A stretch of DNA of 29,123 nucleotides from a virus, in the IMG/VR virus record IMGVR_UViG_3300028388_001036, positions 1 to 29,123 of that record. The stretch is one strand, 5' to 3'. The notes beneath the pieces were generated by a model. The model made no database searches, was not told where the DNA came from, and saw nothing but the letters and a program-made list of their open reading frames with translations. Both the position numbers and the translations under genes were made by a program. Positions 1,751 to 17,805 of the stretch are shown in pieces (position 1 is the stretch's first letter; every line of letters starts with the position of its first letter).

Positions 1751-1774
1751 CCCGGTACTCGTTGATTCCCCTGC

Positions 1775-1830
1775 TGGGGGAGGTTGTTCGACCCTGCACC
1801 CACTCACGGAGCACCTCCCCCACCCTTTTT
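1775..1830 (+). terminator. Candidate intrinsic terminator or attenuator between primase and ATPase genes
   Basis: A 10-bp perfect stem pairs 1775-1784 (TGGGGGAGGT) with 1813-1822 (ACCTCCCCCA). It is followed by ACCC and then TTTTT at 1826-1830. The loop is long, 28 nt. The left arm can instead pair with 1767-1771 (TCCCC with GGGGA, loop TGCTG), and that pairing would prevent the terminator. This mutually exclusive layout resembles an attenuator. It sits in the 107-base gap between the primase stop and the ATPase start. The pairing is seen in the sequence; function is inferred. Confidence 0.5.
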
Positions 1831-1857
1831 CTGAACCCATCAACTCTTGAGGGACGT

Positions 1858-2598
1858 ATGAGCGACTTCAACAAACAACTCCTGCTAATCGCAGGAGAAA
1901 GCGCATCAGGTAAATCCGCCAGCCTGATGAACATTCGTAACCAGGATCGTTGGCTTTACCTGAACTGTGAGGTTGGTAAGCACCTACCCTTCAGGAATAA
2001 GTTCAACAGCCATACGATCACAGATCCTTACCAGATCTACGAAGCGTTCCAGGAGACGACTCCTAACGGCGCTTTCTACGACCAAATCGATGGTATCATC
2101 GTCGACACCCTGACCTTCCTGATGGATATGTTTGAGTCCGTCTACGTCAACAATGCCTCCAACACCATGAAGGCATGGGGTGACTACAATCAGTTCTTCA
2201 AGAAGCTCATGCAAGAGCATGTGGCTGGCTCTGAAAAGTCGGTGATTTTCCTAGCTCACACTCGTCAGGACCTCGATGAGAAAGCCATGGAAATGAGAAC
2301 TTCCGTTCCCATCAAGGGTGCGCTGAAGAACAACGGAGTCGAAGCCTACTTCTCGACTGTCGTTGCTACCAAGAAAATCTCGCTCAAGGATTTGGAGTCC
2401 TACCACTCGGATCTCCTGAACATCACTGAGCAAGATGAAATGCTGGGCTACAAACATGTCTTCCAGACCCAGTTAACCAAGTCGACAGTGGGTGAACGTA
2501 TTCGTTCCCCAATGGGCATGTTCACAAAAGATCAGACCTTCATGGACAACGATGCCCAGCTCCTGCTCGACCATCTCCGAACCTACTACGGTTCTTAA
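1858..2598 (+). CDS. Sak4-like AAA/RecA-fold P-loop ATPase
   Basis: This 246-residue protein starts at ATG 1858, with a GAGGG ribosome binding site at 1849-1853. Walker A is GESASGKS (residues 13-20). Walker B is the IIVDT segment with D83. A strand ending FLAHT (H134) fits the RecA-fold sensor position. Length and motif spacing match the phage ATP-binding proteins grouped as AAA_24/Sak4, which bind single-stranded DNA and work with SSB in recombination. The SSB-like gene directly downstream and the RuvC-like resolvase after it support a recombination or replication role. An in-frame TTG at 1762 would lengthen the protein by 32 residues, but it lacks a ribosome binding site and would translate the terminator-like hairpin, so I rejected it. 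The family is fairly sure; a general replication ATPase is the alternative. Confidence 0.8.
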   Translation: MSDFNKQLLLIAGESASGKSASLMNIRNQDRWLYLNCEVGKHLPFRNKFNSHTITDPYQIYEAFQETTPNGAFYDQIDGIIVDTLTFLMDMFESVYVNNASNTMKAWGDYNQFFKKLMQEHVAGSEKSVIFLAHTRQDLDEKAMEMRTSVPIKGALKNNGVEAYFSTVVATKKISLKDLESYHSDLLNITEQDEMLGYKHVFQTQLTKSTVGERIRSPMGMFTKDQTFMDNDAQLLLDHLRTYYGS

Positions 2599-2633
2599 CC
2601 ACACCACATCCAACCAAAGAAAGGCACACCTTC

Positions 2634-3365
2634 ATGGGTAAGCTCTTTGAAAAACTCCAGGCTGCTGACGCCGAGACCCAAGAAGACCGGGTTGTCGGTG
2701 GCTACGAACCCCTCCCCAGTGGCATCTATGATGCTGAGATCACCCTGGCCTATGCCGGCAAAGCTCAGAACAGCGATGCTCAGAACGTCACCGTCCATGC
2801 CCAGATCGATGGCAAGGAATACCGGGAGACGATCTACATCACCAACCGCAATGGTGAACCCTTCTTCGTCGACAAAAATAGCGGTAAACAGGTCTACCTT
2901 CCCGGTTACAGCACGATCAATGATCTGTGCCTGTTTGCCACGGAAGCCCCTCTCACCGAGCAAGAGACCGAAACCAAGACCATCAAGCTCTACAACTTCG
3001 ATGAGCGCAAAGAGCTTCCTACGGAAGTTCCGGTTCTGACTGGTCTCATCGGCCAGAAAGTGAAGCTCGCCATCCTGCGCTGCATCGATGACAAGCGGGC
3101 TCGTCAGCAGGACGGTAGCTATGCCGAAACTGGAGAGACCCGTGTCTCGAACGAGATCGACAAGGTCCTCCACCCCGAGACCAGCCGCACCGTCAACGAG
3201 TATCTGCGAGAAGTGGATCCCGGTGAGTTCGCAGACGCTTGGATCAAGAGGAATGAGGGCAAAGACCGTAACCGTGCCAAGGGAGTTAGCTCCATGGGCG
3301 GTTCCTCTGGTTCCGGCACTCCTGCTGCTATCGGTGGCCAACGCAAAAGCCTCTTTGGCAAATGA
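2634..3365 (+). CDS. Putative single-stranded DNA-binding protein (N4 gp45-like by position)
   Basis: This 243-residue protein has a GAAAGG-type ribosome binding site ahead of ATG 2634. No catalytic motif is visible. The body (residues ~20-165) is rich in short alternating hydrophobic stretches, as expected for an OB-fold. The tail from ~213 is Gly/Ser-rich and ends in a basic GGQRKSLFGK. That differs from the acidic tail of bacterial SSBs. N4 SSB also has a basic C-terminus, which is implicated in activating host RNA polymerase at late promoters. Position after the primase and Sak4-like ATPase matches N4 gp45. If homologous, it coats single-stranded DNA and may also turn on the minus-strand virion genes. 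The call rests mainly on context and size. The stop codon overlaps the RuvC start (ATGA). Confidence 0.65.
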   Translation: MGKLFEKLQAADAETQEDRVVGGYEPLPSGIYDAEITLAYAGKAQNSDAQNVTVHAQIDGKEYRETIYITNRNGEPFFVDKNSGKQVYLPGYSTINDLCLFATEAPLTEQETETKTIKLYNFDERKELPTEVPVLTGLIGQKVKLAILRCIDDKRARQQDGSYAETGETRVSNEIDKVLHPETSRTVNEYLREVDPGEFADAWIKRNEGKDRNRAKGVSSMGGSSGSGTPAAIGGQRKSLFGK

Positions 3366-3853
3366 TCATCATTGGGATTGATCCTGGCTACACTGGAGCG
3401 ATCGCCGGTCTGGATACCCAGACTGGCTCGCTTGTTGTTCAAGACATGCCAACTGTTCCTTCCCCCAAAGGAAAGGTCATGTTGGACATGGCAGAGCTAC
3501 ACCGTTTCCTGGATCCCCAAGGACGTCAGGACATAGGCGTTGTGATCGAAAAAGTGTCAGCCATGCCCAGACAAGGGGTTTCTTCTACCTTCAGATTTGG
3601 AGAATGCTTCGGTGCGATCCAAATGGCTGTGGTAGCACACCAGTTGCCTTACCAGTTAATCACCCCACAGTCCTGGAAGAAACATTTTGGCCTCACCTCA
3701 AACAAGGGAACTAGCCGTGGACTCGCATCACAACGCTTTCCCCAATACTCAAAACAGTTCGCCCGCGTCAAAGACGACGGCAGAGCTGAAGCTGCCCTCC
3801 TCGCTCTCTTCGGATTCGAAAAACTCTCCTGGACCAACTCAGGACGAGTTTGA
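3362..3853 (+). CDS. RuvC-like Holliday junction resolvase
   Basis: This 163-residue protein belongs to the RNase H-fold RuvC group. IGIDPGYTGAIAG gives the first catalytic acid, D7. VVIEKV gives E63 on the central strand. The C-terminal KDDGRAEAAL helix gives D139 and E143. The positions agree with the D, E, D, D/E set of RuvC enzymes, which coordinate two Mg2+ ions to cut four-way junctions. In a phage this resolves replication and recombination intermediates before packaging. The start overlaps the previous stop by ATGA, so the two genes are translationally coupled. The last ~130 bases are also open in another frame, which continues as a separate small gene. Confidence 0.9.
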   Translation: MIIIGIDPGYTGAIAGLDTQTGSLVVQDMPTVPSPKGKVMLDMAELHRFLDPQGRQDIGVVIEKVSAMPRQGVSSTFRFGECFGAIQMAVVAHQLPYQLITPQSWKKHFGLTSNKGTSRGLASQRFPQYSKQFARVKDDGRAEAALLALFGFEKLSWTNSGRV

Positions 3854-3947
3854 CGACATCGAAGACATTCTCGACGAGGTCTTTCGCAAGGTACTCCGCA
3901 AGTATTACGAAGAGCACCCCAAAGAACCTCACACCAAACCGCAGTAA
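3717..3947 (+). CDS. Small acidic protein overlapping the end of the RuvC-like gene
   Basis: This frame overlaps the resolvase gene by 137 bases and then runs ~90 bases beyond it. The unique tail (DEFDDIEDILDEV, then VLRKYYEEHPKEPH) is acidic and helical and uses codons like its neighbours, so the downstream part looks genuinely coding. The start is uncertain. GTG 3717 has a good AAGGGA ribosome binding site (3704-3709) with 7-base spacing. TTG 3687, with GGAAGAA ahead of it, is an alternative. The overlapped N-terminal part is low-complexity Ser/Pro, consistent with a frame constrained by the resolvase. A +1 frameshift product of the resolvase is another possibility. I do not recognise a family. 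Confidence 0.5.
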   Translation: MDSHHNAFPNTQNSSPASKTTAELKLPSSLSSDSKNSPGPTQDEFDDIEDILDEVFRKVLRKYYEEHPKEPHTKPQ

Positions 3948-3961
3948 AGAAAGACACACCC

Positions 3962-4327
3962 ATGCAGATCACTCTGAACCACAACGAAATCATCGATGCG
4001 ATCGACAGCTTCGTTCGTAAGCAGATCAACATCCGCTCCGATCAAGAGATCGACATCGACCTCAAAGCAGGCCGTGGTGATAACGGTTTCAGTGCAACGC
4101 TCGATATCCGCGATGCTAAAAAGCGTCCTGCCGCTCGTTCGATGCCGACCGCTGAAGAAGCACCGGCACCTTTGGCTCCCAAGAAGGACAAGCCTGTCAT
4201 CATCGAAGAAAAGGACGAGGAGAAAACCGAGGAAACTCCCGAACCTGTTGCTGAAACGAAGAAAGACGAGCCGGCCGAAGATAAAGAGAAGCCGAAAGCA
4301 ACGTCGATCTTCTCCAAGGTGTCCTGA
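3962..4327 (+). CDS. Hypothetical protein with acidic/basic charged tail
   Basis: This 121-residue protein has two parts. Residues 1-52 form a compact segment (NHNEIIDAIDSFVRKQ, then an IDIDLKAGRG strand) that could be a small alpha/beta domain. Residues ~60-121 are low-complexity, rich in Glu, Lys, Pro and Ala, and probably disordered, ending KATSIFSKVS. AAAGAAAG precedes ATG 3962. There is no recognised motif. A folded head with a charged disordered tail is common in phage DNA-binding or assembly accessories, but I cannot assign a role. It follows the resolvase block on the same strand. Confidence 0.75.
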   Translation: MQITLNHNEIIDAIDSFVRKQINIRSDQEIDIDLKAGRGDNGFSATLDIRDAKKRPAARSMPTAEEAPAPLAPKKDKPVIIEEKDEEKTEETPEPVAETKKDEPAEDKEKPKATSIFSKVS

Positions 4328-4346
4328 CTGAGCACCTTGGCCCTGA

Positions 4347-4370
4347 GCCGGGGCAGGGGTTCTCCCCGGC
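4347..4370 (+). other. GC-rich stem-loop in the gap after the 121-residue gene
   Basis: A perfect 7-bp stem, GCCGGGG (4347-4353) with CCCCGGC (4364-4370), has a 10-nt loop. The right arm can instead pair with GGGG at 4356-4359 in a smaller hairpin. No long T run follows (ACCTCTTTAAGG), so it is a weak terminator at best. It ends about 9 bases before the AAGGA ribosome binding site (4379-4383) of the next gene and may act as a processing or stabilising hairpin. Confidence 0.4.
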
Positions 4371-4391
4371 ACCTCTTTAAGGATTCCAACC

Positions 4392-4814
4392 ATGTCCGAA
4401 ACAAAGAACCAGAAGTTCCTTCGTCTCGCTGAGAACAGGTATACAAATGCTGCCAAATCTATCGAGCTCCTTGGAAACCTCACAGGCTATGCCTACGAAA
4501 GCACTCCCGAGCAGCGGCAACTGGTCGTGGATCTCCTTCAGAAGAACATCTCGGATCTGGCTGAGACATATGGAGTGCCTCTGAATGGCTCTGAGAAGCC
4601 CGCTGAGGCGGCATCAGCTACTTCAGCACCCCAGACACCCGAAGATACCCAACGGGCGTCTGTGAGCCCTGTACGGACCGCTCTGACGCTTACCCGGTCC
4701 TACATCTCCCGAGCCATTCGATACATCGAGGGTGAGGATGTGCCTGCTGCTAAGCAGGTTCTTCACAAGGCTCTGTATATTCAGCCCGAAGAAGACAAGG
4801 GAGACGCAGCATGA
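4392..4814 (+). CDS. Hypothetical protein, two helical parts joined by a Ser/Pro/Thr linker
   Basis: This 140-residue protein has an AAGGA ribosome binding site 8 bases ahead of ATG 4392. Residues 1-64 are predicted by eye to be helical (KFLRLAENRY, then DLLQKNISDLAETYG). Residues ~66-92 are a low-complexity linker rich in Ala, Ser, Thr and Pro. Residues ~93-132 are again helical (ALTLTRSYISRAIRYI, then AKQVLHKALYI). I do not recognise the family. Its stop overlaps the start of a small membrane protein (ATGA), so the two are translationally coupled. Confidence 0.75.
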   Translation: MSETKNQKFLRLAENRYTNAAKSIELLGNLTGYAYESTPEQRQLVVDLLQKNISDLAETYGVPLNGSEKPAEAASATSAPQTPEDTQRASVSPVRTALTLTRSYISRAIRYIEGEDVPAAKQVLHKALYIQPEEDKGDAA

Positions 4815-4984
4815 AATTTCTCTTCGGACTAGGCCTCTTCCTGGTGGCTCTGGGTGTACTGGCAAATGCTCTCAACCTCGCAGCAGCTTTGACTGTGAAC
4901 GTTATCCTGCTCGGAGTGATCCTGATCTGCATCCATCTCCTGGTGTCCAACACCAACGACCATAACCCCCCATGGAGAAAATGA
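4811..4984 (+). CDS. Small membrane protein with two predicted transmembrane helices
   Basis: I read this 57-residue ORF directly from the sequence. Residues ~3-21 (FLFGLGLFLVALGVLANAL) and ~28-46 form two hydrophobic helices. The tail (SNTNDHNPPWRK) is polar and ends in basic residues. The start overlaps the previous stop by ATGA and the end overlaps the next start by ATGA, so it lies inside a translationally coupled chain. Two short helices on a tiny protein could suggest a holin. However, it sits in the plus-strand middle-type block rather than next to lysis genes, so an inner-membrane host-modifying protein is equally likely. Confidence 0.75.
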   Translation: MKFLFGLGLFLVALGVLANALNLAAALTVNVILLGVILICIHLLVSNTNDHNPPWRK

Positions 4985-5184
4985 TGGGACCCAAAAGAGC
5001 CATGCACATTGCGGAAGTGCAAAATGCTATCATGGATCTCGATGGAGCCAGGATCATCGACATCATGCACTACACCAAACTGCCCTATGGCACTGTTCAG
5101 GACGCTACTCAGTTCCTTCGTCAGAAAGGTTGGGTCAGCCACGAACAGCGGGGCAGGGAGCTCTGGTTCACCAACAAGGAGTAA
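4981..5184 (+). CDS. Small winged-helix DNA-binding protein
   Basis: This 67-residue protein is one wHTH domain. A first helix (MHIAEVQNAIMDL) is followed by ARIIDIMHYTKLP and the recognition-type helix YGTVQDATQFLRQKGWV. A polar hairpin (SHEQRGRELWFT) fits the wing. It resembles MarR/FaeA-like minimal domains. ATG 4981 is preferred because it forms the ATGA overlap with the upstream stop and has GGAG at 4974-4977. ATG 4972 and ATG 4984 are in-frame alternatives. A lone winged helix in a phage middle region suggests a transcription regulator of phage or host promoters. The fold is fairly clear; the target is unknown. Confidence 0.75.
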   Translation: MMGPKRAMHIAEVQNAIMDLDGARIIDIMHYTKLPYGTVQDATQFLRQKGWVSHEQRGRELWFTNKE

Positions 5185-5189
5185 GGTCC

Positions 5190-5363
5190 ATGATCACTCG
5201 AGAAGACATGGAACGCTTTAAGGATGACCTCTCCACGGAAACGTTGATCCAGATAGCCAGGAACAGACACCCAGCACACACCACGCATGGACCATTCATT
5301 CAGCGCTTAGCGGATAGACTCGAGGAGCTTCAACGCATCCTCGATCAGAGGACAGCAGGTTAA
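5190..5363 (+). CDS. Hypothetical small protein, 57 residues
   Basis: The start is ATG 5190. An AAGGAGTAAGG sequence across the previous stop codon (5176-5186) gives a very strong ribosome binding site. A longer in-frame form from 5130 would lie mostly inside the preceding gene and lacks such a site. The protein is hydrophilic, with a central RNRHPAHTTHGPF segment carrying three histidines and a C-terminal amphipathic helix (LADRLEELQRILDQ). I recognise no family. It belongs to the same run of short genes. Confidence 0.7.
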   Translation: MITREDMERFKDDLSTETLIQIARNRHPAHTTHGPFIQRLADRLEELQRILDQRTAG

Positions 5364-5365
5364 GT

Positions 5366-5524
5366 ATGAGCAAGTTTGATGATATGATCAAAACAGTACA
5401 TCGCTTGAATCTGATTGCGGAAAAGATAAACATGCTTAGCGACCAAGGTAGGAACGATGAGACTTATGAACTCCGGGAACTACATCGTCAGCTCGAACTA
5501 GCGATTCAGGATCTCAAATCATGA
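5366..5524 (+). CDS. Hypothetical 52-residue coiled-coil-like protein
   Basis: I read this short ORF directly. ATG 5366 lies two bases after the previous stop, and the stop overlaps the next start (ATGA). The protein is almost all helical and charged: HRLNLIAEKINMLSDQ, then ETYELRELHRQLELAIQDL with leucine spacing that suggests a short coiled coil. The ribosome binding site is weak (CAGGT across the previous stop), so translation is probably coupled. Function is unknown. Confidence 0.65.
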   Translation: MSKFDDMIKTVHRLNLIAEKINMLSDQGRNDETYELRELHRQLELAIQDLKS

Positions 5525-5724
5525 GTGCCGGCGCCATCGAAGTGAAAATACTTATTGGATTGGATCACATCGAACCAAACCAAAGCACTCGCTTCGAGTT
5601 GGCTCGAGTGCTCAACAATGCAGCCAACCATTTCTTCGAGTCTGAGCCAGAGAGCTGGACACACATCCAGAGCATCGCTGGGGATGTCATCGGAGAGATG
5701 AAATATGAGTTTATTCCTGACTGA
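5521..5724 (+). CDS. Hypothetical 67-residue protein
   Basis: The start at ATG 5521 forms an ATGA overlap with the upstream stop. Residues 5-16 (AIEVKILIGLDH) look like a beta strand. They are followed by a helix (RFELARVLNNAANHFFE) and another mixed segment ending KYEFIPD. This could be a small alpha/beta fold. I do not recognise it. It is the last gene before the 246-base gap holding the 77-nt element. Confidence 0.6.
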   Translation: MSAGAIEVKILIGLDHIEPNQSTRFELARVLNNAANHFFESEPESWTHIQSIAGDVIGEMKYEFIPD

Positions 5725-5727
5725 ATA

Positions 5728-5804
5728 AGTCCCAACCTCCTTAAGGGCGCGTATCGTGGCGTGTCCGATAAAACCAGCTTGGTCTGACATGCGGCGTTGG
5801 GACT
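5728..5804 (+). ncRNA. Candidate 77-nt structured RNA element with tRNA-like size
   Basis: A perfect 9-bp closing stem pairs AGTCCCAAC (5728-5736) with GTTGGGACT (5796-5804). Inside are a 5-bp hairpin TATCG/CGATA (5752-5756 with 5766-5770, 9-nt loop) and a 4-bp hairpin ACCA/TGGT (5773-5776 with 5780-5783, loop GCT). A CCTTAAGG palindrome lies at 5739-5746. The total length and multi-branch shape recall a tRNA, but stem positions do not fit the canonical cloverleaf and there is no TTC-type T-loop. It could be a tRNA-like element, a processed leader or a regulatory structure. A 4-bp hairpin (TGCC/GGCA, 5804-5815) abuts it. The base pairing is seen; the RNA role is inference. Confidence 0.35.
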
Positions 5805-5848
5805 GCCCATAGGCATTTATGTACCCGCAAGATCAGGAAACAGCGTCA

Positions 5849-5872
5849 GGGGAGAACGAGATCTCCTTGTTT
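5849..5872 (+). terminator. Weak terminator-like hairpin
   Basis: The stem is GGAGA (5851-5855) with TCTCC (5862-5866), loop ACGAGA. Two flanking G-T wobble pairs extend it, and TTGTTT follows. The stem is short and the T run is broken. It lies in the gap between the two small-gene runs, where transcription may stop or pause. An AT-rich hairpin, GTAAAA with TTTTAC (5913-5930), lies downstream. Confidence 0.25.
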
Positions 5873-5955
5873 ATCGACTACGGGGAATTCACCAAAATTT
5901 GCGCTCTAGCATGTAAAATTCCCTTTTTACGGTGAAGCGTAACAAACCACACCAA

Positions 5956-5962
5956 AGAGGAG
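5956..5962 (+). promoter_or_regulatory. Strong ribosome binding site serving a six-codon minicistron
   Basis: AGAGGAG lies 8 bases before ATG 5971, which is ideal spacing. It is about 25 bases from the ATG at 5988, too far to serve that gene directly. This site decides that translation begins on the minicistron. Confidence 0.6.
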
Positions 5963-5970
5963 CGCAGCAC

Positions 5971-5991
5971 ATGACTGGATCCAAGACATGA
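5971..5991 (+). CDS. Six-residue leader minicistron (MTGSKT)
   Basis: ATG ACT GGA TCC AAG ACA TGA encodes six residues behind a strong AGAGGAG site. The stop overlaps the ATG of the next gene (ATGA at 5988-5991). The downstream gene has no good site of its own, so ribosomes probably reach it by termination and restart. Whether the peptide itself matters is unknown. Confidence 0.45.
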   Translation: MTGSKT

Positions 5992-6194
5992 CCAAGGCTC
6001 AACCTCGAGCATTCACAGCCCAGATCCATGTCGTTCTCTATAAGACAGACGACGAGATCATAAAGGAAGCGACCAAGCTCGGCCGGCATTGGGGTCGGGA
6101 TAACGATTGGGTTCCTGCCAATCTCAACGATGCAATCAAGGAGATCGTGCTTTGGTCCGATGCTTCTGCTGACTACGGAGTCGAGATACAATGA
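5988..6194 (+). CDS. Hypothetical 68-residue protein
   Basis: The start at ATG 5988 is the only in-frame one, coupled to the minicistron by ATGA. A hydrophobic strand (TAQIHVVLYKT) is followed by a helix (DDEIIKEATKLGRHW). A middle segment holds NDWVPANLNDAIKEIVLW, and the end is acidic. The composition suggests a small folded alpha/beta protein. No family is recognised. Its stop overlaps the next start (ATGA, 6191-6194). Confidence 0.65.
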   Translation: MTKAQPRAFTAQIHVVLYKTDDEIIKEATKLGRHWGRDNDWVPANLNDAIKEIVLWSDASADYGVEIQ

Positions 6195-6388
6195 CCCTAG
6201 GATACTCTCTCAAAGATGACGGCCAAGGCAACGTCACCTTGTCTTGCGACAAGAGCGGCAGACCCCTCAACCGAACCGATAAGTTGGGCATGTTCTGTGA
6301 CGCTGAACCATGCACCTGCGAGATTGAGGCGTACAAGCTAGACCAAAGTTTTCTTTCTTACTTCGGGATAGAGACCAATGAACAATGA
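6191..6388 (+). CDS. Hypothetical 65-residue protein with four cysteines
   Basis: The protein has C19, C36, C41 and C43 (SCDKSGRP, then MFCDAEPCTCE). The CDKSGRP element looks like one knuckle of a zinc ribbon in which a second cysteine has become serine. A four-cysteine zinc site is possible but not certain. The start overlaps the upstream stop by ATGA. The C-terminal part (YKLDQSFLSYFGI) is hydrophobic and aromatic. Function is unknown. Small zinc-binding proteins in phage middle regions often bind host enzymes, but nothing here proves that. Confidence 0.65.
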   Translation: MTLGYSLKDDGQGNVTLSCDKSGRPLNRTDKLGMFCDAEPCTCEIEAYKLDQSFLSYFGIETNEQ

Positions 6389-6560
6389 CGACAGCTGGAA
6401 AGGTGAACATCTTCTCTACGGGATCAAGGCAGACCGGAGAGAAGCGAACGGCTGGAACATCGCAGGCGGCAAGAAGCTCAGAGCGCGTCTCAAGGATGCT
6501 CAACAGAAGGCTCCTAAAAGCAAGAGAAGCTCCCCTAAATCTAAGAGAGCTCCTAGCTGA
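6378..6560 (+). CDS. Small basic protein, last gene of the plus-strand block
   Basis: This 60-residue protein is strongly basic at the C-terminus (LRARLKDAQQKAPKSKR, then SSPKSKRAPS), as in nucleic-acid-binding tails. The N-terminal half (WKGEHLLYGIKADRREANGW) uses codons typical of the neighbours. An overlapping frame from ATG 6385 to 6594 is also open. That one fits the local ATGA habit and has a plausible C-terminus (LRELLAESGFLPGK), so the choice of frame is not settled. No family is recognised. Confidence 0.5.
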   Translation: MNNDDSWKGEHLLYGIKADRREANGWNIAGGKKLRARLKDAQQKAPKSKRSSPKSKRAPS

Positions 6561-6610
6561 GTCAGGTTTCTTGCCTGGGAAAACTGCTGCCTGACGCTTT
6601 AAGTTTAAAG
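6561..6610. terminator. Candidate terminator region between convergent gene blocks
   Basis: Plus-strand genes end here and the minus-strand block ends at 6619, so a terminator is expected for at least one direction. Two hairpins are visible: GTCAGG (6561-6566) with CCTGAC (6590-6595), and CTTTA (6597-6601) with TAAAG (6606-6610). The second is followed by GACTTTTCTT, a modest T tract for plus-strand transcription. No clear T run serves the minus strand. If the alternative frame ending at 6594 is real, it overlaps the first stem. Confidence 0.35.
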
Positions 6611-6618
6611 GACTTTTC

Positions 6619-9600
6619 TTAGTTTACAAGATTCCACCATGGGTTCAGGCTCATAGAGTCCCAACCCATGCCTGGTCCGATGCTGTATCCCAGATCTCCA
6701 TCGGCAATATTCCCTGGCAAAGATCCGCTCCAAAGAGTGTCTTGATCCAAGGCAGGGCCAACCACCCCCATCAGTAGTAGTGAGTTCAGCGGACGTTCCC
6801 GTACGTTCTTCATCATGATCTTCGTGATGCGAAGCTTGTAGTTGTAGAACCAGAGCAATCCATGGTTCTCCACGAAATCTCTACCTCTACCAGGAAGACG
6901 GTTATAAGCCACGAACTCTTCGAAGATCTCATCGAGAGCTTCTTGCTTTTCCATCTTCTTGGTCTTTGTCATGTGATCGTAAAGCACAGCCTTGGCTACA
7001 AAATCTCCATACTGAACGAAGCGATTCAGACCCTGGAAGAGTGCCGTGTCCTTAGTGATCAGGAGATTTTTAGCAACGCCTCTGCTCCACTCAGGAAGCC
7101 TGTCTGTTGCGTTTTCCATCAGGTCTGACCACCGACCTTCACGGATAGCCACGTCAGCCTCAGTAAGGTTTTCCGAGATGGTGCTGAACTCACCAGCATC
7201 GATCAGCGGCTTGATCGACATTTTCGAGTTCGCGTCATTCAATGCCTGGATCTGAGCTTCCAACCTACGTTGCTCAGGTACATTGCTGAAGTTGGCTGCC
7301 AGATCGATTTGAAGCCGGCTAATCTCTTCCTTGTTTCTTACATATTCAGTCAGCTCAACGAACTTGTCCCGCATTCCGCCGAGAGCCTCAACGAAACCAA
7401 TTCCGTTGTTCATCAGCTGAAGAACGTTCGAGATCAAGTTTCCATAAGCCACCACCACAGAACGCACCACGATGTTTGTCTTCGCAAAGGAGACCGCATC
7501 ATTGATGGTTTGGTCCCCGATCGCCAGGTACTTGAAGGCGTTGTTCCCGATCATCCGACGAGCAAACTGACGGAACCTTTTCTGGTTCTCAGGAGACCAA
7601 CGTGAAGTTCCAGTCCAGAAGTCAGTCACACCAGCTGACCGGAAACCAATAGCATCGTCTACCATGTCCCGACGAACAGGAACAAAGTTAGCCTGTCCAA
7701 AGGTAGCCGCAGCATGAGCCTTGATCTGCCAGCCCAGAGTATCCCAGGCATCTTTGATGACAGCATCTCCCTGCTTGGGATCAGCCACGTTCACAAAGAC
7801 TGCACCAGGCTTATCTTTCTCACGATCGTAAATCTCTTTCAGAGTCTCGATCAGTTGCTTGTTGAAGTCATCAGCCGCAGTCTCTTCCACGATACGACCA
7901 GCCCAGACACCCAGCATCCGACCCAGGTGAGTGTCTCGCTTGATGCCTTTTAGCATCTTGGGATCCATCGGACGTTCATACGCCTGCACGTCACCGTTCT
8001 TGTCAAAACGAGGGATGAGGTACTCTCCAGGGGGTAGCTTGTTATCGTTGGGAGATATCTTCCTACGAGACAGACGAGCCACTCTGGAACCCCTAACGAT
8101 GCCAGCAGTGGATCCATGGTAGGTCAGACCAGTTCGGCTATCTACGCCAGAGAATGTCTCATGTACCGTCTGGGCAATCCCTTGACGGAACGTGTTCATC
8201 GCTGAGACGGTCGACTGGTAGTAGTAGCGTTTTCCTTTGTAGCCTTCAGCCTGGTCCCCATAGTAGCGACCCAGACGAACATATCCACGATCGAGCATGA
8301 TGGCGTCATCTTTGATGTCTCGCACCACAACCTGGCTACCTTCCTGAACAACAGACGGAATAAAACCCTTCCAACCATTGTTCTGGGCAACCTTGTTGAG
8401 ACCCAGACGATCTCGACGTTCAATCTCCGCCTGACGTGTGGTGTTGAGCACCGCTACAAGAGAGTTCATTCCATCAGGCTCTTTGTCCATCAGTTCGAAG
8501 ATCTTGTTCTGAACATCAGGATCAAGCTTCTGAAACGCATACAAACTCGTCAGCTCATCAATTGCTTGGATGAGATTTGGTGTGACTTGATGCGGAAGCT
8601 TGGTGCTCTCGTTGAACAGGTAGGCGATGGCATGAGCATTGGGCAGAAGGTTTTTCGAGATTACTTCCTTTTTGACCATGTAATGAGCCAGGGCATTTGC
8701 CTTCTCCATGTAAAGATCAGCCGTCTTACGGCCGAGCACACGGATCCTTTCCTCGGTCCCTGCAATCTGCTTCTGTACCGTGGCCTGAGACTTGATTGCG
8801 CCAAGAGCACGACGCTGACCCAGAGCAAGTACGTCAGCTTCTCCAAGCGCGTAAAGCTGGTTCCACTCTTCTCTAGTGAGCTTCCGGCTGAAACGCTTAG
8901 CCAGTTCTTTTGGCATCTTCTCACGAGAGTCCTGACGAATAGCATCGATCATGGCTCGGACAGGGTTCACAAGCCTCATCAGAGCACGGTTGGCATCCGT
9001 GACTCCCCGAAACTCCCTGATCAGTGCTCGCACAGCATCGTAGTTCGGGCTGGCGTTGAGAATGGTCGTCAGACCTTCTCCATAAGCTGCGCTGAGATCC
9101 TTGTCTCCCAAAGCTGCAACGAACTTAGCAGCCTCAAACCCGTTCTTTACTCGCTGGTTCGTGAACCTTTGGCTCTGATCGTCGACAAACTTAACCGCTT
9201 TCTTACTGGCTCGGGATAGCTGCTCACTGGCGTAGTCATTGACTACGTCCATCTTGGCAAAGATCTTCGCAGTCGAGAGGAACCTTCGTTCATTCTCGAT
9301 CGCAGACAAAGCATCGGCCAGAACATCAAGCTCTTGCTTGACGTTGGGCTGGTTCCGTACCCCACGCAAAGACAGACGGGTTAGAAGATCCACAACAATC
9401 TTACCGATCCTGGAAACAAATCCATCGATCGATCCTGTCTCCAACTCCAGAACCTTGGGTGTTTTCTTCTTAGCCAGAGCTGCTCTCAGATCATCATTCA
9501 CCATCCCGAGAGCGATGAACGTCGCCAGTAGATCAGACTGGTTGTTTTTGTTGGTTCTAATCCCATCCGTCGAAGCCAGGAACCGAACCTTATCAACAGC

Positions 9601-12600
9601 CTCGGCATACTCTGTCTGAGTGTAGTTTTCACCCAGGAAGTCTTCTGCCTTCAGGCTTTTGATGGTCTGGGTGTAGAGCTCATTCACCTGCCGGAAGAGA
9701 GATGGATCCAGTTTCATCCCTGACTGGATCGCAGCATGGATCGCTTCGAAAGCGTACGCCTGACGAGGATTCATCCCATAGCCGGCAAAGTTAGCCAGCT
9801 CTGCTGCGTCATGAGCTTCCTTCTTCAGGGTAGCGACCTTCAGATGATACTCATCCATAGCCCGCTTACTCTGACGATTTTCAGCTTCTTTACGTTCAGC
9901 GTTGAGGTACTGAACCATCCTTTGAATGAACTGATTCTCGATCCGAGCTAGTCGAGGATTATCAGGGTAAACCTGGTTCAGAACTTCATTCGTAACTGCG
10001 TTCTGCTTTGCTTCTTCGATGTGAAGTGGTGTGGCAGCAATCACTTCGGCATTGAAGCGAATGTTCGAGAACAGTGTTCGACCTGGACCAGCCTCAATTC
10101 CCAACAGTCTCTTGAGAACTTCCAGACCTTTGCGGATCACATCGCTGATCGGAGTAAAGACACGCTTCTCCTGACCCAGCTCAATGAGATTCTGGTTCGT
10201 CAACATCCAGCTGATGAACTCACTCATCTGAGCTGCACGGTTACCCGACAGTCTCTGTATCTCACCACGAAGCGTAAGCAGGGCAGGGAGGTCTGCCCCG
10301 AGCTCCATGTTCATGGTGGTCTCGAGTAGGCTCTCCATCCTCTTGACAGCATCCCTGGTTTCTTCAGGCACGCTCGTAGGATCGTTGTAGTAGGCAACCA
10401 ACGTCTCAAAGGTATGACTGTGCAGGATCTCGTGCAGCACTGTTTCGGGTGCTGCATTTGTAGCCAGTACGACGCCTCCATAATGGGCTGAGAACAGACC
10501 CAGTTTGATCGGCGCCTTGGGTATCTTCCAGTAGAGGTCATCTCGCATGTCAGCAAGAGCCTGCTCTTCACCGAAGTAGAACGTGATGTCTTTGAAGGCA
10601 GGGCTGCTCATCACACCCCGAACCAAGGACAGCTGCTCACGGGAGATGTTCTTTGCAGATCGTAGGAACGTCACCAGACGACGGGCAGGGACCTTTTTTA
10701 CGTTGGGGTGGTTCTCTACCTCATCGCTTTGCTTCTCCAGGAACTTCTGAAGAGCAGGGTCTGGTTCCTGAACAACAGGCTTTTGGCGCTCAGTCTCTAT
10801 CTCCTTGAGACGACGCTCCATGTACTCCCGAGCAAGCTGATTCAACTTCTCAGCTATCTCACTATAGCTCGTAGGATTGTCAGTGCTCGTCACCTCGGTG
10901 CCGTTAGCATAAGGTGCTTCTGCGCTAGCCATGTGATCTGTCTGAGTAGCCATCTGAGAGATGGCATACTTACGAGCTTCGCTTTCAAGAGCTGCTTTTT
11001 GAAGCAGATTATTCAGCACCGTCAGATCAGATTTGGAAACATTCTCCAGCTTCTGGGTTCGGCCTACAGCCTTGGACAGAGAGATCCTCGCCTTCTCGGG
11101 CAAAGCCTCCAGCTCCGAGGAAGAAATCTCACCCAGGATCTGGGAGAAACCTTCCTGCACGGACTGGAACACATTACTGGCCATCCATGCTTTGAAAACG
11201 CTCTCGTTGATCTGCCTGGATCCAGCGACAGCATTCTGAGAAGCCAGTTCCACGCCGTCAAAAACAGCCAGAGACGTATCGAGAGTGCCATCAGCATTAG
11301 CATAGATCTCGATCATCATGCGACCGTCACCTGTGCCGATCGTCGTGTAGGGAGAGACCTTCACAGAAGGATCCTTAGCTCCCAGAACTGTCAGCTTAGA
11401 GCTGAACCGTCCATCTAACGACTGGGAAACAGTTCGATCTATTGGAGCACGATTCTGAGCAGCAATGTGGAACTCCTGAACCGACGTTCCATAGATGGGA
11501 GCAACACGCATAGTCTCTTCAAAGACCTCTTGCATGTCTTGTTCGGAAAGCTCTTCGGTTTTCAACAGTTCGCCTGATTTACGCTTCTCTTGGAGGCGAG
11601 CATTCAGGGCTGCTTCCAGCTTGTTCTGGAACAGGTAAGCCTGCACCTGAGAGGCTGTCTGAACGAGCTGCATATTTTGAGCCAGTCCACCAGTTGTTTC
11701 ATCGATGGACTTGAGCATCGGCTCTGCAAATTCTTTCTCCACCAACTCTGTCAGCTGTGCTTCTGCCTGTGACTTCAGTTCAAACTGGCTCGGGTTTTTC
11801 AGTACAGCGTCAGCAAACTGCTGGCCAAACAGATTTCGGAAGGCTGCAATCTTCGAAGCATGGTTCGCTTCGTTGTATGTGCCGGCTTTTTGCTCTGCTG
11901 CGATCTGGCTGAGCATCTTGTAGAAATCTTTCATTGCAGCTTTGAAGATCTTGCCGGCAATACCATTGGCGCCTGAGCCGTACAGAAAGACCGTTAACGG
12001 GTTCTTCGTGATATTCCGTTCGATCGTAAAGTTGATGTCCTGGATCTGGTTCTGATCATCCCGATCAACCTGCATCTCGAAGTCAGGGAGGAACTGAGAC
12101 AAAAACTCCAGGACAGCCATCGTTTGGTTCAGATCCTCAGAGCTGGAGACAGCTTGAAGAAGATCTCGGTGAAACACTTCAGCCGCCATCTGGTAGAGGT
12201 CTTTGTGTTTTTCAGGCACATTTTTGACACGCTGCTCTTCCGCCATGAACTGGCTCAGAGACATGGGCTGGCTGGTAAAAAACAGACCCCCTTTAGCCAA
12301 ACGTTCGATTTCCTTCTCGTCGAACCGACCAGTCGCCATGTGGATCATCGCATTGATGGGACCATCAGTCTTACCATCTGCCTCGATTGCCAGAGCTGAC
12401 CGGAAGCTGGCCAATCCACCTTCTTGAGTTGCCACATTCATCCGGGCTACATCCAGCATGGCGTGAAGAGCCTTTGGCGTCATCTCCAGCTCACTGGGAA
12501 TAGAGAAGTTTTCCAGCTTCCCATTCTTCAGATAGCCCTCCAGAGCCTCCACAGCAGGCTGTAGAGCCCCGTTAATCATCTCCTGGGCCTCACGTACGCT

Positions 12601-15600
12601 TTCGGCATGAGGCTGCTTCTCGATGCTGATACCGAGCGATTGAGCCACTGCAAGCCAGAAGGTTTTTATGTGTTCTTCGTTGGATTCGAGATCCAGATCA
12701 GACCATGTGGCGCTGATGGTTTCCCGAATCGTCTTGTCACCCTGCGGTGTGATCGGTCCTTGCTGCTGAAGACGAGCGACAGACGACACTCTCCATGAGA
12801 AAAAGATCGAGACGGCGTCTCGAGATGAACCCGTCGCTGAGGCTTCTTCTTCTACTTCAGCGAGGTATCCCCGCAGACCATCGAGAGCACTTCTCAGGGA
12901 AGTGTTCTTACCCTCTTGGCTGGCTGCATCAACTTTGTTCATGGTCTTGGGGATGTCTTGATACCCCATCAAACGCATGTAGACGTCATCCCCCAGAGCC
13001 TCGATCAGATCAACCATCGGACTGTTAATCGTGAACCGCGTTTGCTGAAGCCGTTCTACGACATACAGCTCCCACTTGGAGAGTTTAGCCAGCCGGTTCC
13101 CCAGCTGGGTTCTGCTTATCGATTCAGGAGGTGAACCAACGAACCGGGCTTTGCTGTGACCTGATGTGAATATCCTCGTGAAGACATCGGGCATAGCCTT
13201 CATCGTTTTCACGACACCCGAAGGCTTTTGTCCTTTAGAGGGATCACCAACAAACTTGGGATCCAGGTTCAACGTCACGAAGGATTTCTGCTCACCTTTC
13301 CCATTGGTGTATTTATAAGGATCATTCCGACGTACTACCCCGTTCTTCTCAGCAATCATCAGGGCATTGGCAGCCATGTGCCGAAAGATACCCTGAGACC
13401 GTGTAGCACTGATCTTGTTCGTAGGCTCAACACCCAGCAGGGTCTCAATCTTTCGAGCGATTTCGTTGATAGCTGTCTGTTGGTTCAAGCCGCTTTGGAC
13501 TGCTTTTCGATCCTCGGCCGAAACAGTTCCAAACCGTCCACGACCCAAGGCTTTCGAAACAGCTTCGTCATCCATGTAAGGACGGCCCTTGAAGGCTGTC
13601 TCAAACATCCACTCGTTGATTGCCATGTACGTGGCTTGAGCTACTCGACGATCGAGTTGAGTCTTACCGTTCTCCCCCTTCACCATGAAGTTGGCGATCT
13701 GGGCTTCTGGGAAGCTGAGCATTATATCCAGCTTCTTTTCCCAACCTTTCTGTTTCATCGTCTGGATAAAAGCCTGGGTCAGTTGCTGGGCAAAGCTGGA
13801 AGCTCCTTGAGACACCAGCTGCTTAACCACACGCTTTTCAGCATCATTCAGCTCACGGGACAGACCATTCTGGTCTGTCACGAGGTTGTCGATGTTTTCC
13901 AAAACAAACTGGGCAGGATCCTCATGAGCAGTAAGCGTAGATCCCTCGCTACGAGCCTTAAATGCCTTCAGGAAGTAGTTCACACCTTCCATCGCACCGA
14001 ATGCCAACTTCTTTAAAGACTCCAACCAAGCAACAGCAGGAGGTGGAGACCGCTCAGGCCCCTTCTCATCGACTTCCGCTTGACCAGCGGAAGTCTCTTC
14101 GGAAGGCCGAGCTTCCTCGACTTCTACAAGGGTGTCGTCTTCACTGAGGACATCGAGAGTTGTATCTGGCTCTGCTGATTCAATGACTTCTTCGCTCGAA
14201 ACCTGATCTTCTGCTGCTGGCGCTTCTTCTTGCGTTTCTGCGACAGGGGCTTGTTGCTCGGTTTCTCGAGTCCTTGAGTCATCCGTCCTCGCTGTTTCTT
14301 GGTTTTGTTGGGTTCGTTGGGTTTGTTGGGTCTCTTGTCTCGGTGCTCGAGGCTGGGGCAGGGCGCCTACAGCTGCCCAAGCTGCACGACGCTTTTCACG
14401 TTCAGCGAGAGCCACAGTCTCAGGGTTTTGGATTTCAGGATTGTCATAGACATCCCACTCCTGCTGGAGACCCAGATCACTCTCCCGAACCACGGAATTT
14501 CCTCTGATGTCTTCATCCAGGGCTGTGAACAGATCACTGATCGTGGAACCAGCGGGAAGGAAGCCAGCTTCGATGGCAGCCTCAGTCAGTTCGTCGGAGG
14601 TACGGCCACCCTTATTATCGCTCAGACCGCTGCTTGTCGTTCTCAGGCGTTCTCGCTTGAAGAATCCGGGTCTCCGGTATCCCAGAGCACGAGCCTCTCC
14701 AATGTTCGCATCTTCGAGCCAGAAACCACCCTGCTGAGTGACGAATTCCTTTAACGTCTCAGGTCTTTTTTGTTCTGGTTTTGCAGGCTTCTGAATGCGT
14801 TCTGCATACTTGAGCTCAGATTCCGTGACTGGCCCTTCAAGAGGAAATTGCCTGAGGTTTTTCAGACGTTTTGGAAGGTCAGGATCACCCACCAAAACTC
14901 TGTTGGGGACAGTGTTCCCATCCGAGTCAAACGTGTCAGTCTCATCGATCAGAGACTGCCGGCCGACAGGTCCACGGGCATCTTTGCGAATACGCCGTTC
15001 AGGCTTGGAACCATCGGGTTCACCTTCGATCGGCGCAGAGACTGCTTCGGAGATCTCGGCAGCCAAAGGCTCCATCGAGAGAGGAGCAAAGTTTTTATTG
15101 TTTTGGAGACCCAGAGAGTCAACCAGTTCAGCGTATATCGTGTTGTAGGTGTCGACGACTGCTCGAGCATCAATCTCAACTTCCCGAGCCAGGGCCACAC
15201 TGTTGGGGACGGCAGGGTTAAACCAGGCGCCCTCCTCAAGACGGTAGCCTTGGTCAGCTTCCTTGATGTCGAAGAACTGACCAGACGGATTCACAGCCTG
15301 ATAGCTGAGACCGTTCTCTTCGCTCGTTACCCCAGTCCGAGCTGCTTCATTGAAAGCTCCCAGCTTGTTCAGTTGAGACTGAGCAAACTTTCGGAGAAAC
15401 AGGAGATAGTCCGTCGCCTCAACAGTCTGACCAGATGAGAACGCATCCAAGATTTGCTGACGATGTCTCGTGATACCGGGGAGCTTGTTGAAAAAGTTCT
15501 CCCCAACCAGAATATCATCACGGACCATATCCTTAGTCCGGTATTTAACGCCTGGGGAGACTTCGACTTCTTCAAGCTGGGCTTTTTCTTCACTGGTTCG

Positions 15601-17805
15601 TGTGAAGATCTCCGCAAGTTTCTTGGCCATAGCCAAGCTCTTCCGAAGAATACTGTTGTCTTGGTTCAGTCCCGTTGTTTGGTTCAGAACCGTGTCATAC
15701 TGGTTCTGAGGCACCGCTTCAGGATTCACCTGAGCGATGGCAGCAATGATCTGCTCCAGACCAGCCCTATCAGCTTCGGGGATCGTCTCGTCTTGAAGGA
15801 CGCTAAAGTCGATGATCTTTGCAACGTCTTCAGCGCTAACATTCTTCAGATATTCCTGAGCCTTTTCGAGAATACCCGAACTCTCGAAAGTGCTGATGGA
15901 GTCAACGAGTTGAGTGTATGCTTGTCTCTCTACCGCGTCAGGCGCAAGGCTCTCGACCTCCGCTGTCGCTTCGGTCGAGGCCACGCTTCTGACGCTGTTG
16001 AAGTCGGAGATGATGCTGGCAGCAGAAATCAGCTTGGCATCTGTACTTACGTCTTCCAAATCCAGAATTTGGGACGCTGTCTCCATTGCAGCGAAACGAG
16101 AAATCTGTCCCGTGTCGGTTCTGGGCGTTCCTTCGTAAAGAGGAGACGTTGCTTCAGCTTCATCCAGGAACAAAGCATTCTGCACTGACTGGGTCAGAGC
16201 ACTGGGGGCAGGGGCTTCTTCGGCTTCTTCTGTGGTTTGGTTTGGTGTGACCGAATCCAACAAAGCAGCTCCAGCAGCCGCAGCTGTTTCAGCGGCTTCC
16301 GTTCGTGCAGCTGTCCCTACAGCACTGACATCATCAGCTTGTTGATCCAGCTGAGCATCTCTCGCTGAGAGAACATTGCTGGCAGCTCGTCCAGCGCTCC
16401 TCAGAGCCTCAGCAGTGGTTCCGAAGGCTACCCCAGGGACCTGTAAGGGACCGGCGCTCAGAGCGCCTCCCAAGGCGCCTATAGCACCTGCTTCAGCCAC
16501 ACCCTCATCAAGGGCTACATCGATATCTCCAGAACGGAGACCGATGTTGCTGGCCAGTTGGGTATTCGCTTCTTGAAGAGTTTCCTCAACAGTCTCTGCT
16601 GCGGTATTCCGAGCACCTCCAGCGATCGAGGATCCAATGGTTCCAGATCCACGGGTGCGGAGAGGATTGGCAGCAAATGGAGCAGCGATCTTACCAGCAA
16701 CTACAGCTCCAGGAATGGCAGAGATGGCAGCAATGGTGCCTTGGTTCATCGCCATCTCTTCGCGAGCCTGATCAGGCTTCATGCCAGCATCAATGTATCC
16801 TTGGTAGATCTCACTTTTAGCCAGTTCTGCTTCTGGCATGGACAGGATTTCTTGCTGAGTTTGGGTGAGGGCAGACCCACCTTCAGCTGCACCAATGACC
16901 GCAGGAGCTGCACGTTGAGCAGCCGCATCTACAGCTTCTCTGCCAGCCTTTGTCTTAAGGTAGTCTGAGATCTCTTTGTTGGATTTGCCGGCAGCTCTCA
17001 GTTCAGCGATCACAGCTCGACGGCCGGCAGTTCGAATGAGGCCAGCAAAGCCTGCAACCGAAGCAATCCCCTCAGGAACAATCGAACCAGTGATGATTGG
17101 GTCTTCAAGAGTGTTCTCGATCGTATCGTAGAACGCATCACCTTGCTTCTTGAGCCAGTTGAGAACACCCTTGCCTTCACCAAACTCAGCTTCTCGGTCT
17201 TGGCGGTCCAAGTCTTTGGCTAGTTCCACCTGAGCCCGACGCTCTTGCATCAGTTGAGACTGATTTGATCTGCCTTGTTCGTTGATCCACTGAAGTCCCT
17301 GACTCACAAACGGAGTAAGAGGTTCAGGAGGCTGGATGACTTCTTCACCAGCTACCGTATTGATTAAATCGGCGGGAGCACTGAGGAGCTTGTCTCCAAC
17401 CAGAGTTCCCAGAGCAGCAGTAGATCCCAAGACATTGGTAACAGCCAGACCAGCATCGATTGCCGAGTCCTTGATGACATCTGAACGGGGACGTTCTCTA
17501 TCCAGAAGCGTTGCAAGATCCTGGTAAGCTTTACCGTAGACGTTTCTTGCTACAGCCGCTTCAGGACCATACTTGGCCGCAAATTCCAGAGGATCGAGTT
17601 CTGTAAGTTCCCGAACGTCAGGTTGTTGACCCAGATCGTTCCCATTCATTTGGGCCGTAGCAATGGCACGACGTTCAAGATCACTACCATAGAGAGCCTG
17701 TTTCTGACGAGACGTCAGCTCCAGATACTCTTTCTTCGCAGCAGATCTTTCAGGGAAGGTGATAGGCGAACCAATCCGGTACGTCTTCAGCGAGGAGTAT
17801 TCCAT
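6619..17805 (-). CDS. Giant virion-packaged RNA polymerase (N4 gp50-like vRNAP)
   Basis: The product has 3,728 residues, close to the ~3,500 of N4 vRNAP. Single-subunit polymerase motifs occur in order. R1678 of SVAR is followed at T7 spacing by PQG. Motif A has D1810 (EADGKTDGP). Motif B is an exact R-x3-K-x7-YG with R1930, K1934 and Y1942 (RNITKNPLTVFLYG). Motif C is FDGVEL with D2183. Spacing resembles the N4 enzyme as I recall it. Residues ~1-1140 form an Ala/Gly-rich N-terminal region with hydrophobic stretches. Residues ~1150-1260 are a Gln/Thr then acidic linker, ~1280-2330 the polymerase core, and ~2600-3728 the C-terminal region. A zincin-like HEILHSH (H2458, E2459, H2462) with E2529 in SEFISW lies after the core. 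The enzyme is injected with the DNA to transcribe early genes. It is the last gene of the virion block and has a weak AGGG ribosome binding site. Confidence 0.93.
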   Translation of the reverse strand: MEYSSLKTYRIGSPITFPERSAAKKEYLELTSRQKQALYGSDLERRAIATAQMNGNDLGQQPDVRELTELDPLEFAAKYGPEAAVARNVYGKAYQDLATLLDRERPRSDVIKDSAIDAGLAVTNVLGSTAALGTLVGDKLLSAPADLINTVAGEEVIQPPEPLTPFVSQGLQWINEQGRSNQSQLMQERRAQVELAKDLDRQDREAEFGEGKGVLNWLKKQGDAFYDTIENTLEDPIITGSIVPEGIASVAGFAGLIRTAGRRAVIAELRAAGKSNKEISDYLKTKAGREAVDAAAQRAAPAVIGAAEGGSALTQTQQEILSMPEAELAKSEIYQGYIDAGMKPDQAREEMAMNQGTIAAISAIPGAVVAGKIAAPFAANPLRTRGSGTIGSSIAGGARNTAAETVEETLQEANTQLASNIGLRSGDIDVALDEGVAEAGAIGALGGALSAGPLQVPGVAFGTTAEALRSAGRAASNVLSARDAQLDQQADDVSAVGTAARTEAAETAAAAGAALLDSVTPNQTTEEAEEAPAPSALTQSVQNALFLDEAEATSPLYEGTPRTDTGQISRFAAMETASQILDLEDVSTDAKLISAASIISDFNSVRSVASTEATAEVESLAPDAVERQAYTQLVDSISTFESSGILEKAQEYLKNVSAEDVAKIIDFSVLQDETIPEADRAGLEQIIAAIAQVNPEAVPQNQYDTVLNQTTGLNQDNSILRKSLAMAKKLAEIFTRTSEEKAQLEEVEVSPGVKYRTKDMVRDDILVGENFFNKLPGITRHRQQILDAFSSGQTVEATDYLLFLRKFAQSQLNKLGAFNEAARTGVTSEENGLSYQAVNPSGQFFDIKEADQGYRLEEGAWFNPAVPNSVALAREVEIDARAVVDTYNTIYAELVDSLGLQNNKNFAPLSMEPLAAEISEAVSAPIEGEPDGSKPERRIRKDARGPVGRQSLIDETDTFDSDGNTVPNRVLVGDPDLPKRLKNLRQFPLEGPVTESELKYAERIQKPAKPEQKRPETLKEFVTQQGGFWLEDANIGEARALGYRRPGFFKRERLRTTSSGLSDNKGGRTSDELTEAAIEAGFLPAGSTISDLFTALDEDIRGNSVVRESDLGLQQEWDVYDNPEIQNPETVALAEREKRRAAWAAVGALPQPRAPRQETQQTQRTQQNQETARTDDSRTRETEQQAPVAETQEEAPAAEDQVSSEEVIESAEPDTTLDVLSEDDTLVEVEEARPSEETSAGQAEVDEKGPERSPPPAVAWLESLKKLAFGAMEGVNYFLKAFKARSEGSTLTAHEDPAQFVLENIDNLVTDQNGLSRELNDAEKRVVKQLVSQGASSFAQQLTQAFIQTMKQKGWEKKLDIMLSFPEAQIANFMVKGENGKTQLDRRVAQATYMAINEWMFETAFKGRPYMDDEAVSKALGRGRFGTVSAEDRKAVQSGLNQQTAINEIARKIETLLGVEPTNKISATRSQGIFRHMAANALMIAEKNGVVRRNDPYKYTNGKGEQKSFVTLNLDPKFVGDPSKGQKPSGVVKTMKAMPDVFTRIFTSGHSKARFVGSPPESISRTQLGNRLAKLSKWELYVVERLQQTRFTINSPMVDLIEALGDDVYMRLMGYQDIPKTMNKVDAASQEGKNTSLRSALDGLRGYLAEVEEEASATGSSRDAVSIFFSWRVSSVARLQQQGPITPQGDKTIRETISATWSDLDLESNEEHIKTFWLAVAQSLGISIEKQPHAESVREAQEMINGALQPAVEALEGYLKNGKLENFSIPSELEMTPKALHAMLDVARMNVATQEGGLASFRSALAIEADGKTDGPINAMIHMATGRFDEKEIERLAKGGLFFTSQPMSLSQFMAEEQRVKNVPEKHKDLYQMAAEVFHRDLLQAVSSSEDLNQTMAVLEFLSQFLPDFEMQVDRDDQNQIQDINFTIERNITKNPLTVFLYGSGANGIAGKIFKAAMKDFYKMLSQIAAEQKAGTYNEANHASKIAAFRNLFGQQFADAVLKNPSQFELKSQAEAQLTELVEKEFAEPMLKSIDETTGGLAQNMQLVQTASQVQAYLFQNKLEAALNARLQEKRKSGELLKTEELSEQDMQEVFEETMRVAPIYGTSVQEFHIAAQNRAPIDRTVSQSLDGRFSSKLTVLGAKDPSVKVSPYTTIGTGDGRMMIEIYANADGTLDTSLAVFDGVELASQNAVAGSRQINESVFKAWMASNVFQSVQEGFSQILGEISSSELEALPEKARISLSKAVGRTQKLENVSKSDLTVLNNLLQKAALESEARKYAISQMATQTDHMASAEAPYANGTEVTSTDNPTSYSEIAEKLNQLAREYMERRLKEIETERQKPVVQEPDPALQKFLEKQSDEVENHPNVKKVPARRLVTFLRSAKNISREQLSLVRGVMSSPAFKDITFYFGEEQALADMRDDLYWKIPKAPIKLGLFSAHYGGVVLATNAAPETVLHEILHSHTFETLVAYYNDPTSVPEETRDAVKRMESLLETTMNMELGADLPALLTLRGEIQRLSGNRAAQMSEFISWMLTNQNLIELGQEKRVFTPISDVIRKGLEVLKRLLGIEAGPGRTLFSNIRFNAEVIAATPLHIEEAKQNAVTNEVLNQVYPDNPRLARIENQFIQRMVQYLNAERKEAENRQSKRAMDEYHLKVATLKKEAHDAAELANFAGYGMNPRQAYAFEAIHAAIQSGMKLDPSLFRQVNELYTQTIKSLKAEDFLGENYTQTEYAEAVDKVRFLASTDGIRTNKNNQSDLLATFIALGMVNDDLRAALAKKKTPKVLELETGSIDGFVSRIGKIVVDLLTRLSLRGVRNQPNVKQELDVLADALSAIENERRFLSTAKIFAKMDVVNDYASEQLSRASKKAVKFVDDQSQRFTNQRVKNGFEAAKFVAALGDKDLSAAYGEGLTTILNASPNYDAVRALIREFRGVTDANRALMRLVNPVRAMIDAIRQDSREKMPKELAKRFSRKLTREEWNQLYALGEADVLALGQRRALGAIKSQATVQKQIAGTEERIRVLGRKTADLYMEKANALAHYMVKKEVISKNLLPNAHAIAYLFNESTKLPHQVTPNLIQAIDELTSLYAFQKLDPDVQNKIFELMDKEPDGMNSLVAVLNTTRQAEIERRDRLGLNKVAQNNGWKGFIPSVVQEGSQVVVRDIKDDAIMLDRGYVRLGRYYGDQAEGYKGKRYYYQSTVSAMNTFRQGIAQTVHETFSGVDSRTGLTYHGSTAGIVRGSRVARLSRRKISPNDNKLPPGEYLIPRFDKNGDVQAYERPMDPKMLKGIKRDTHLGRMLGVWAGRIVEETAADDFNKQLIETLKEIYDREKDKPGAVFVNVADPKQGDAVIKDAWDTLGWQIKAHAAATFGQANFVPVRRDMVDDAIGFRSAGVTDFWTGTSRWSPENQKRFRQFARRMIGNNAFKYLAIGDQTINDAVSFAKTNIVVRSVVVAYGNLISNVLQLMNNGIGFVEALGGMRDKFVELTEYVRNKEEISRLQIDLAANFSNVPEQRRLEAQIQALNDANSKMSIKPLIDAGEFSTISENLTEADVAIREGRWSDLMENATDRLPEWSRGVAKNLLITKDTALFQGLNRFVQYGDFVAKAVLYDHMTKTKKMEKQEALDEIFEEFVAYNRLPGRGRDFVENHGLLWFYNYKLRITKIMMKNVRERPLNSLLLMGVVGPALDQDTLWSGSLPGNIADGDLGYSIGPGMGWDSMSLNPWWNLVN

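Follow-up and report, generated by a model that had tools for sequence, protein, structure and literature searches.

The giant virion RNA polymerase (vRNAP) encoded in the window (a DNA stretch of 29,123 nucleotides, part of the 38,446-base virus record IMGVR_UViG_3300028388_001036) contains a segment that is supported, by its sequence and by a predicted model, as a zincin-like metallopeptidase domain, and support extends that far. The features of the gene and its neighbourhood, all on the minus strand, are as follows.

6619..17805, minus strand: giant vRNAP gene, homologue of N4 gp50 and largest ejection protein, 3728 aa
10927..13059, minus strand: polymerase Pfam domains vRNAP_dom_2, N4_RNAP_helical and vRNAP_dom, residues 1583-2293, upstream of the zincin
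9865..10824, minus strand: C1-equivalent domain with the zincin-like metallopeptidase, residues 2328-2647, from AlphaFold2 and a family profile matching N4 2098-2409
10102..10629, minus strand: predicted zincin core, made up of strands and the helices that hold HExxH and the Glu, residues 2393-2568, from AlphaFold2 and Foldseek
10420..10434, minus strand: HEILH, residues 2458-2462, with predicted zinc ligands H2458 and H2462 and predicted general base E2459
10219..10221, minus strand: E2529, predicted third zinc ligand, from sequence and invariance
6622..10008, minus strand: C2-equivalent C-terminal domain, residues about 2600-3728; homology reaches the last N4 residue, and the boundary is placed by analogy with PMC12633501
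17819..19615, minus strand: 598-aa neighbour upstream of the vRNAP, possible ejection-protein homologue, PHROG 6126

The 3728-aa open reading frame was identified as an N4-like vRNAP by PHROG 2206 (E=0), by N4 gp50 in the PDB (11gp, E=4e-286) and by three vRNAP Pfam families above cut-off (PF21769, PF21867, PF21894). Homology with N4 gp50 spans the polymerase and the C-terminal domains, and the size of the protein (3728 aa, for a range of about 3,000-3,700), its late-gene neighbourhood and the adjoining virion structural protein genes are likewise those of a Schitoviridae vRNAP. Residues 1-115 of the 598-aa neighbour match the virion structural protein family PHROG 6126 (E=1.7e-11), and its position suggests a possible role as an ejection-protein homologue.

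An earlier note on this DNA, made from the sequence alone, had pointed to an HExxH motif followed by a distant glutamate, and both elements were found where it had placed them. VLHEILHSH is read at residues 2456-2464, with the triad H2458, E2459 and H2462 at window positions 10434-10420, and SEFISW at residues 2528-2533, with the codon of E2529, 67 residues past H2462, at window positions 10221-10219. The segment does follow the polymerase core, as polymerase Pfam matches stop at residue 2293. HExxH occurs once in the 3728-aa protein, where about 0.02 occurrences are expected from composition. An additional histidine, H2464 (window 10414-10416), lies two residues past the motif; relatives have Ala or another residue at this position.

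Conservation was assessed in four sets of sequences. Among 28 diverged domains from 27 schitovirus vRNAPs, representing many genera across the family and including 12 members fetched via polymerase or C2 similarity only, H2458, E2459, H2462 and E2529 are the sole four invariant columns of about 320; N2537 is kept in 26 of the 28. The alignment of relatives suggested by the earlier note thus found the motif neither missing nor variable. The possibility that the motif seems conserved merely because hits were found through it was ruled out with an unbiased set, in which loci were picked by the C-terminal 300 aa alone. All 66 usable loci (those with enough upstream sequence) contained exactly one HExxH, lying 958-1041 residues upstream of where the C-terminal query matched; the four residues were invariant across the 62 distinct sequences of this set. 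HExxH and the distal Glu were also intact in 45/45 IMG/VR loci recovered by a domain-profile search and in 7/7 loci from bacterial genomes. The conservation of the motif is far above chance. The C1 segments of relatives share 10-12% identity with that of the window, with 35-38% gaps, and within the C-terminal half C1 belongs to the less conserved regions, so conservation is concentrated in the four residues. Judged from sequence, four invariant residues amid a diverged domain have the look of a selected active site.

A global alignment of 14 whole vRNAPs misplaced the motif in some sequences, because insertions displace it, and local domain alignments were used for this reason. For scans with degenerate patterns, the all-subfamily profile proved too divergent, and a search of IMG/VR for close relatives with the window domain alone as query found nothing. 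The vRNAP of Vibrio phage 1.238.B (CDS 4-10944) has two tandem HExxH domains, at residues 2286 and 2609, about 320 apart. A 248,734-base "partial genome" of Enterobacter phage SonariX encodes a 3623-aa N4-like vRNAP at 1050-11921; the record far exceeds any schitovirus in size and may be a joined assembly. Public vRNAP genes are often mislabelled, for example, as DNA polymerase, translation initiation factor 2, coil containing protein or lysozyme domain protein, and the record of the Pantoea phage G19 vRNAP gives "metallopeptidase" as its sole name.

At the structural scale, AlphaFold2 was run on residues 2328-2647 with 44 sequences and returned a confident model with pLDDT 84.4 and pTM 0.78 (pLDDT 85.5 for the trimmed core, residues 2393-2568). 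Strands are predicted at model positions 81-85, 109-112 and 118-121, the HExxH (positions 131-135) lies inside a predicted helix at 126-147, and the distal Glu (position 202) lies inside another at 196-209, after two inserted helices. This predicted order of sheet, HExxH helix and Glu helix is the core layout described for zincins (Iyer et al. 2017, PMC5512222), in keeping with the zincin pattern that the earlier note had recognized. In a Foldseek search of the PDB, N4 vRNAP ranked first (E=3.5e-6) and an M34 zincin came next, short of significance (E=0.11, probability 0.54); the trimmed core gave the same order, with the M34 zincin again below significance (E=0.27). The only recurrent HExxH fold outside vRNAPs in the structure search was the zincin. 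Matches among predicted viral structures were vRNAPs, phiKMV-like internal core proteins and "large polyvalent protein associated" proteins, together with a weak match (E=0.04) to a crAss-like "RNAP associated protein fused to zincin protease", a giant RNAP-associated protein of phage ctbg_1. The polymerase of the crAss-like system is of an unrelated type. With thresholds as loose as E<=10, Pfam left the window domain unmatched and gave only weak M90, M91 and SprT matches, none past cut-off, for its homologues; Pfam and NCBIfam together assigned no peptidase family to the domain or to the gp16-type proteins discussed below. A match to a curated peptidase model is not defining for the zincin fold, and this family is very divergent.

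The zincin domain of N4-like vRNAPs is already known as a domain prediction. A metallopeptidase (MPTase) was described in N4-like polymerases, with N4 vRNAP among the founding examples (Iyer et al. 2017, PMC5512222); the prediction is restated for N4 and CB1 in a 2021 review (PMC8472413), and a 2025 preprint on N4 cryo-EM notes a conserved HExxH in subdomain C1 (2124-2375; PMC12633501). Protease activity is reported in none of these three papers, and no zinc content, cleavage product or substrate of the domain was found in the literature consulted. N4 C1 (PDB 9pnr, 9pnt, 11gp) likewise lies between polymerase and C2 and matches the family profile that includes the window over its full length (E=1.7e-79), with H2228, E2229, H2232 and E2310 as the equivalent residues, read from the profile alignment. 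The two domains are divergent, with a single-sequence match of just E about 1e-10, and the window vRNAP differs in being 228 residues longer overall than N4 gp50 and in having the extra H2464. With the MPTases of polyvalent proteins (PMC5512222), the domain shares the sheet followed by HExxH and Glu helices, and its place within a giant multidomain protein that, by analogy with N4 (PMC12633501), would be delivered with the phage DNA. It differs from them in having no Pfam peptidase match above cut-off; the Asp that follows HExxH in another MPTase clade (PMC5512222) is missing, and an A/S-x-T stretch is found instead.

Homologous zincins were also found in ejection proteins that contain no polymerase. 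The vRNAP zincin profile matched PDB 9sfn_G, a 1337-aa chain named "internal virion protein" (E=2.4e-20), and PDB 8vb2_A, the tetrameric ejection protein (TEP) of Pectobacterium phage PhiM1 (E=9e-5), an assignment to PhiM1 that rests on agreement in name, gene number and length. By Tblastn, the part of 9sfn_G that matched has identical copies in phiKMV-like Pseudomonas phages, LUZ19 among them, and PHROG 2206 independently matches the LUZ19 protein (E=6.8e-17). In both phages the zincin lies in the largest ejectosome protein, encoded as follows.

3756-7769 of LUZ19: gp16-type ejection protein with H, E, H and E intact, 1337 aa
4198-7989 of PhiM1: gp16-type ejection protein with H, E, H and E intact, 1263 aa

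HExxH and the distal Glu were kept in all 12 IMG/VR copies of the gp16-type zincin, and in a joint alignment of 32 domains all four residues were invariant. The LUZ19 and PhiM1 proteins are annotated as exotransglycosylase or endolysin-like, and the PhiM1 paper labels TEP 268-528 "endolysin/exotransglycosidase-like". HEAAH at residue 385 of PhiM1 TEP falls inside this region and Pfam detects no transglycosylase in either protein; the sequence suggests that the "endolysin-like" label is probably wrong. The phiKMV protein gp37 (1337 aa) has been given as the gp16 equivalent with a protease unmentioned (PMC8954989). The structure of T7 gp16 was absent from the zincin-profile search even at E<=10, so the module is seemingly not universal among podophages. 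Another large phage protein, gp10 (PDB 23sg_S, 1239 aa), gave a weak match to the profile (E=0.007). What is new here, as read from sequence comparison, is the zincin module with all four residues in gp16-type ejection proteins, and this is a modest extension of what was known.

We infer zinc binding, catalysis, timing and substrate from these observations together. A gluzincin-type domain (C1) would lie in the injected vRNAP with the T7-like polymerase on one side and the large C2 on the other; H2458, H2462 and E2529 would be the ligands of a zinc ion, and E2459 the residue that activates water. We favour, with moderate confidence, the reading that this metallopeptidase domain is intact and works a single time, in the envelope or cytoplasm of the host once ejection has taken place; its target would be a host or ejectosome protein or, under certain conditions, a linker of the vRNAP itself, and constitutive self-processing would not be its role. 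The vRNAP and the gp16-type proteins have host delivery in common, not transcription, and the presence of the module in polymerase-free ejection proteins speaks more for a role after ejection than for one in transcription. N4 vRNAP is reported to be packaged without processing and to be full length in virions (PMC5512222), and in the published model the PhiM1 TEP forms a tetramer within the capsid, the zincin-overlapping domain included; together with the shared delivery, this makes a peptidase acting after ejection the most economical reading. Counted against it are the lack of a Pfam peptidase family past cut-off and a structural similarity to solved zincins outside vRNAPs that stays below significance, at E about 0.1-0.3.

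An autoprotease that cuts the vRNAP, for example, at the linker between polymerase and C-terminal domain, and so lifts autoinhibition inside the cell, is unlikely, although it best survives among the alternatives. The zincin directly follows this linker, the C-terminal domain inhibits transcription by N4 polymerase (PMC12633501), and self-processing has been proposed for such domains in polyvalent proteins (PMC5512222). However, packaging of N4 vRNAP unprocessed makes constitutive self-trimming unlikely, the module also occurs in gp16-type proteins that have no polymerase, and in published work N4 gp50 produced recombinantly in E. coli was found undegraded. Its survival of expression argues against constitutive self-cleavage. 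As a disproof of protease activity in general, the intact recombinant protein is weakened by the way it was purified: the lysis and purification buffers contained 0.5-1 mM EDTA, which makes it weak evidence against activity.

Less probable still is a HExxH domain that binds metal but has no protease function, for instance an alphaKG-HExxH type of oxygenase or a metal site with a purely structural role. The activity of the domain is only predicted, and HExxH domains of radical SAM fusions are named beside zincins in PMC12633501. Against this, a distal Glu in a later helix, invariant together with HExxH, is the zincin signature, no other HExxH fold recurred outside vRNAPs in the structure search, and the predicted general base E2459 never varies, though it would be needless for a structural site. 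A processing enzyme working in the capsid or at assembly, on the vRNAP or other head proteins, is very improbable: the C-terminal region is required for encapsidation and P1 DdrB is cleaved before packaging (PMC5512222), but N4 virions contain full-length vRNAP and the PhiM1 TEP keeps its domain in the capsid.

Altogether, a peptidase acting after ejection would be consistent with a broader scheme, which we put forward tentatively and hold as somewhat less than an even chance: in two or more unrelated podophage lineages, one zincin module would serve the largest ejection protein (the vRNAP of Schitoviridae and the gp16-type protein of phiKMV-like and PhiM1-like phages) in a shared proteolytic delivery step at the inner membrane rather than in transcription, and the "endolysin-like" domain of PhiM1 would be a protease. 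If the zincin is active, every schitovirus would inject a protease alongside its polymerase, and phiKMV-like phages would inject one too, adding a proteolytic step to phage genome delivery, for which current descriptions give only the building of a channel and the digestion of peptidoglycan.
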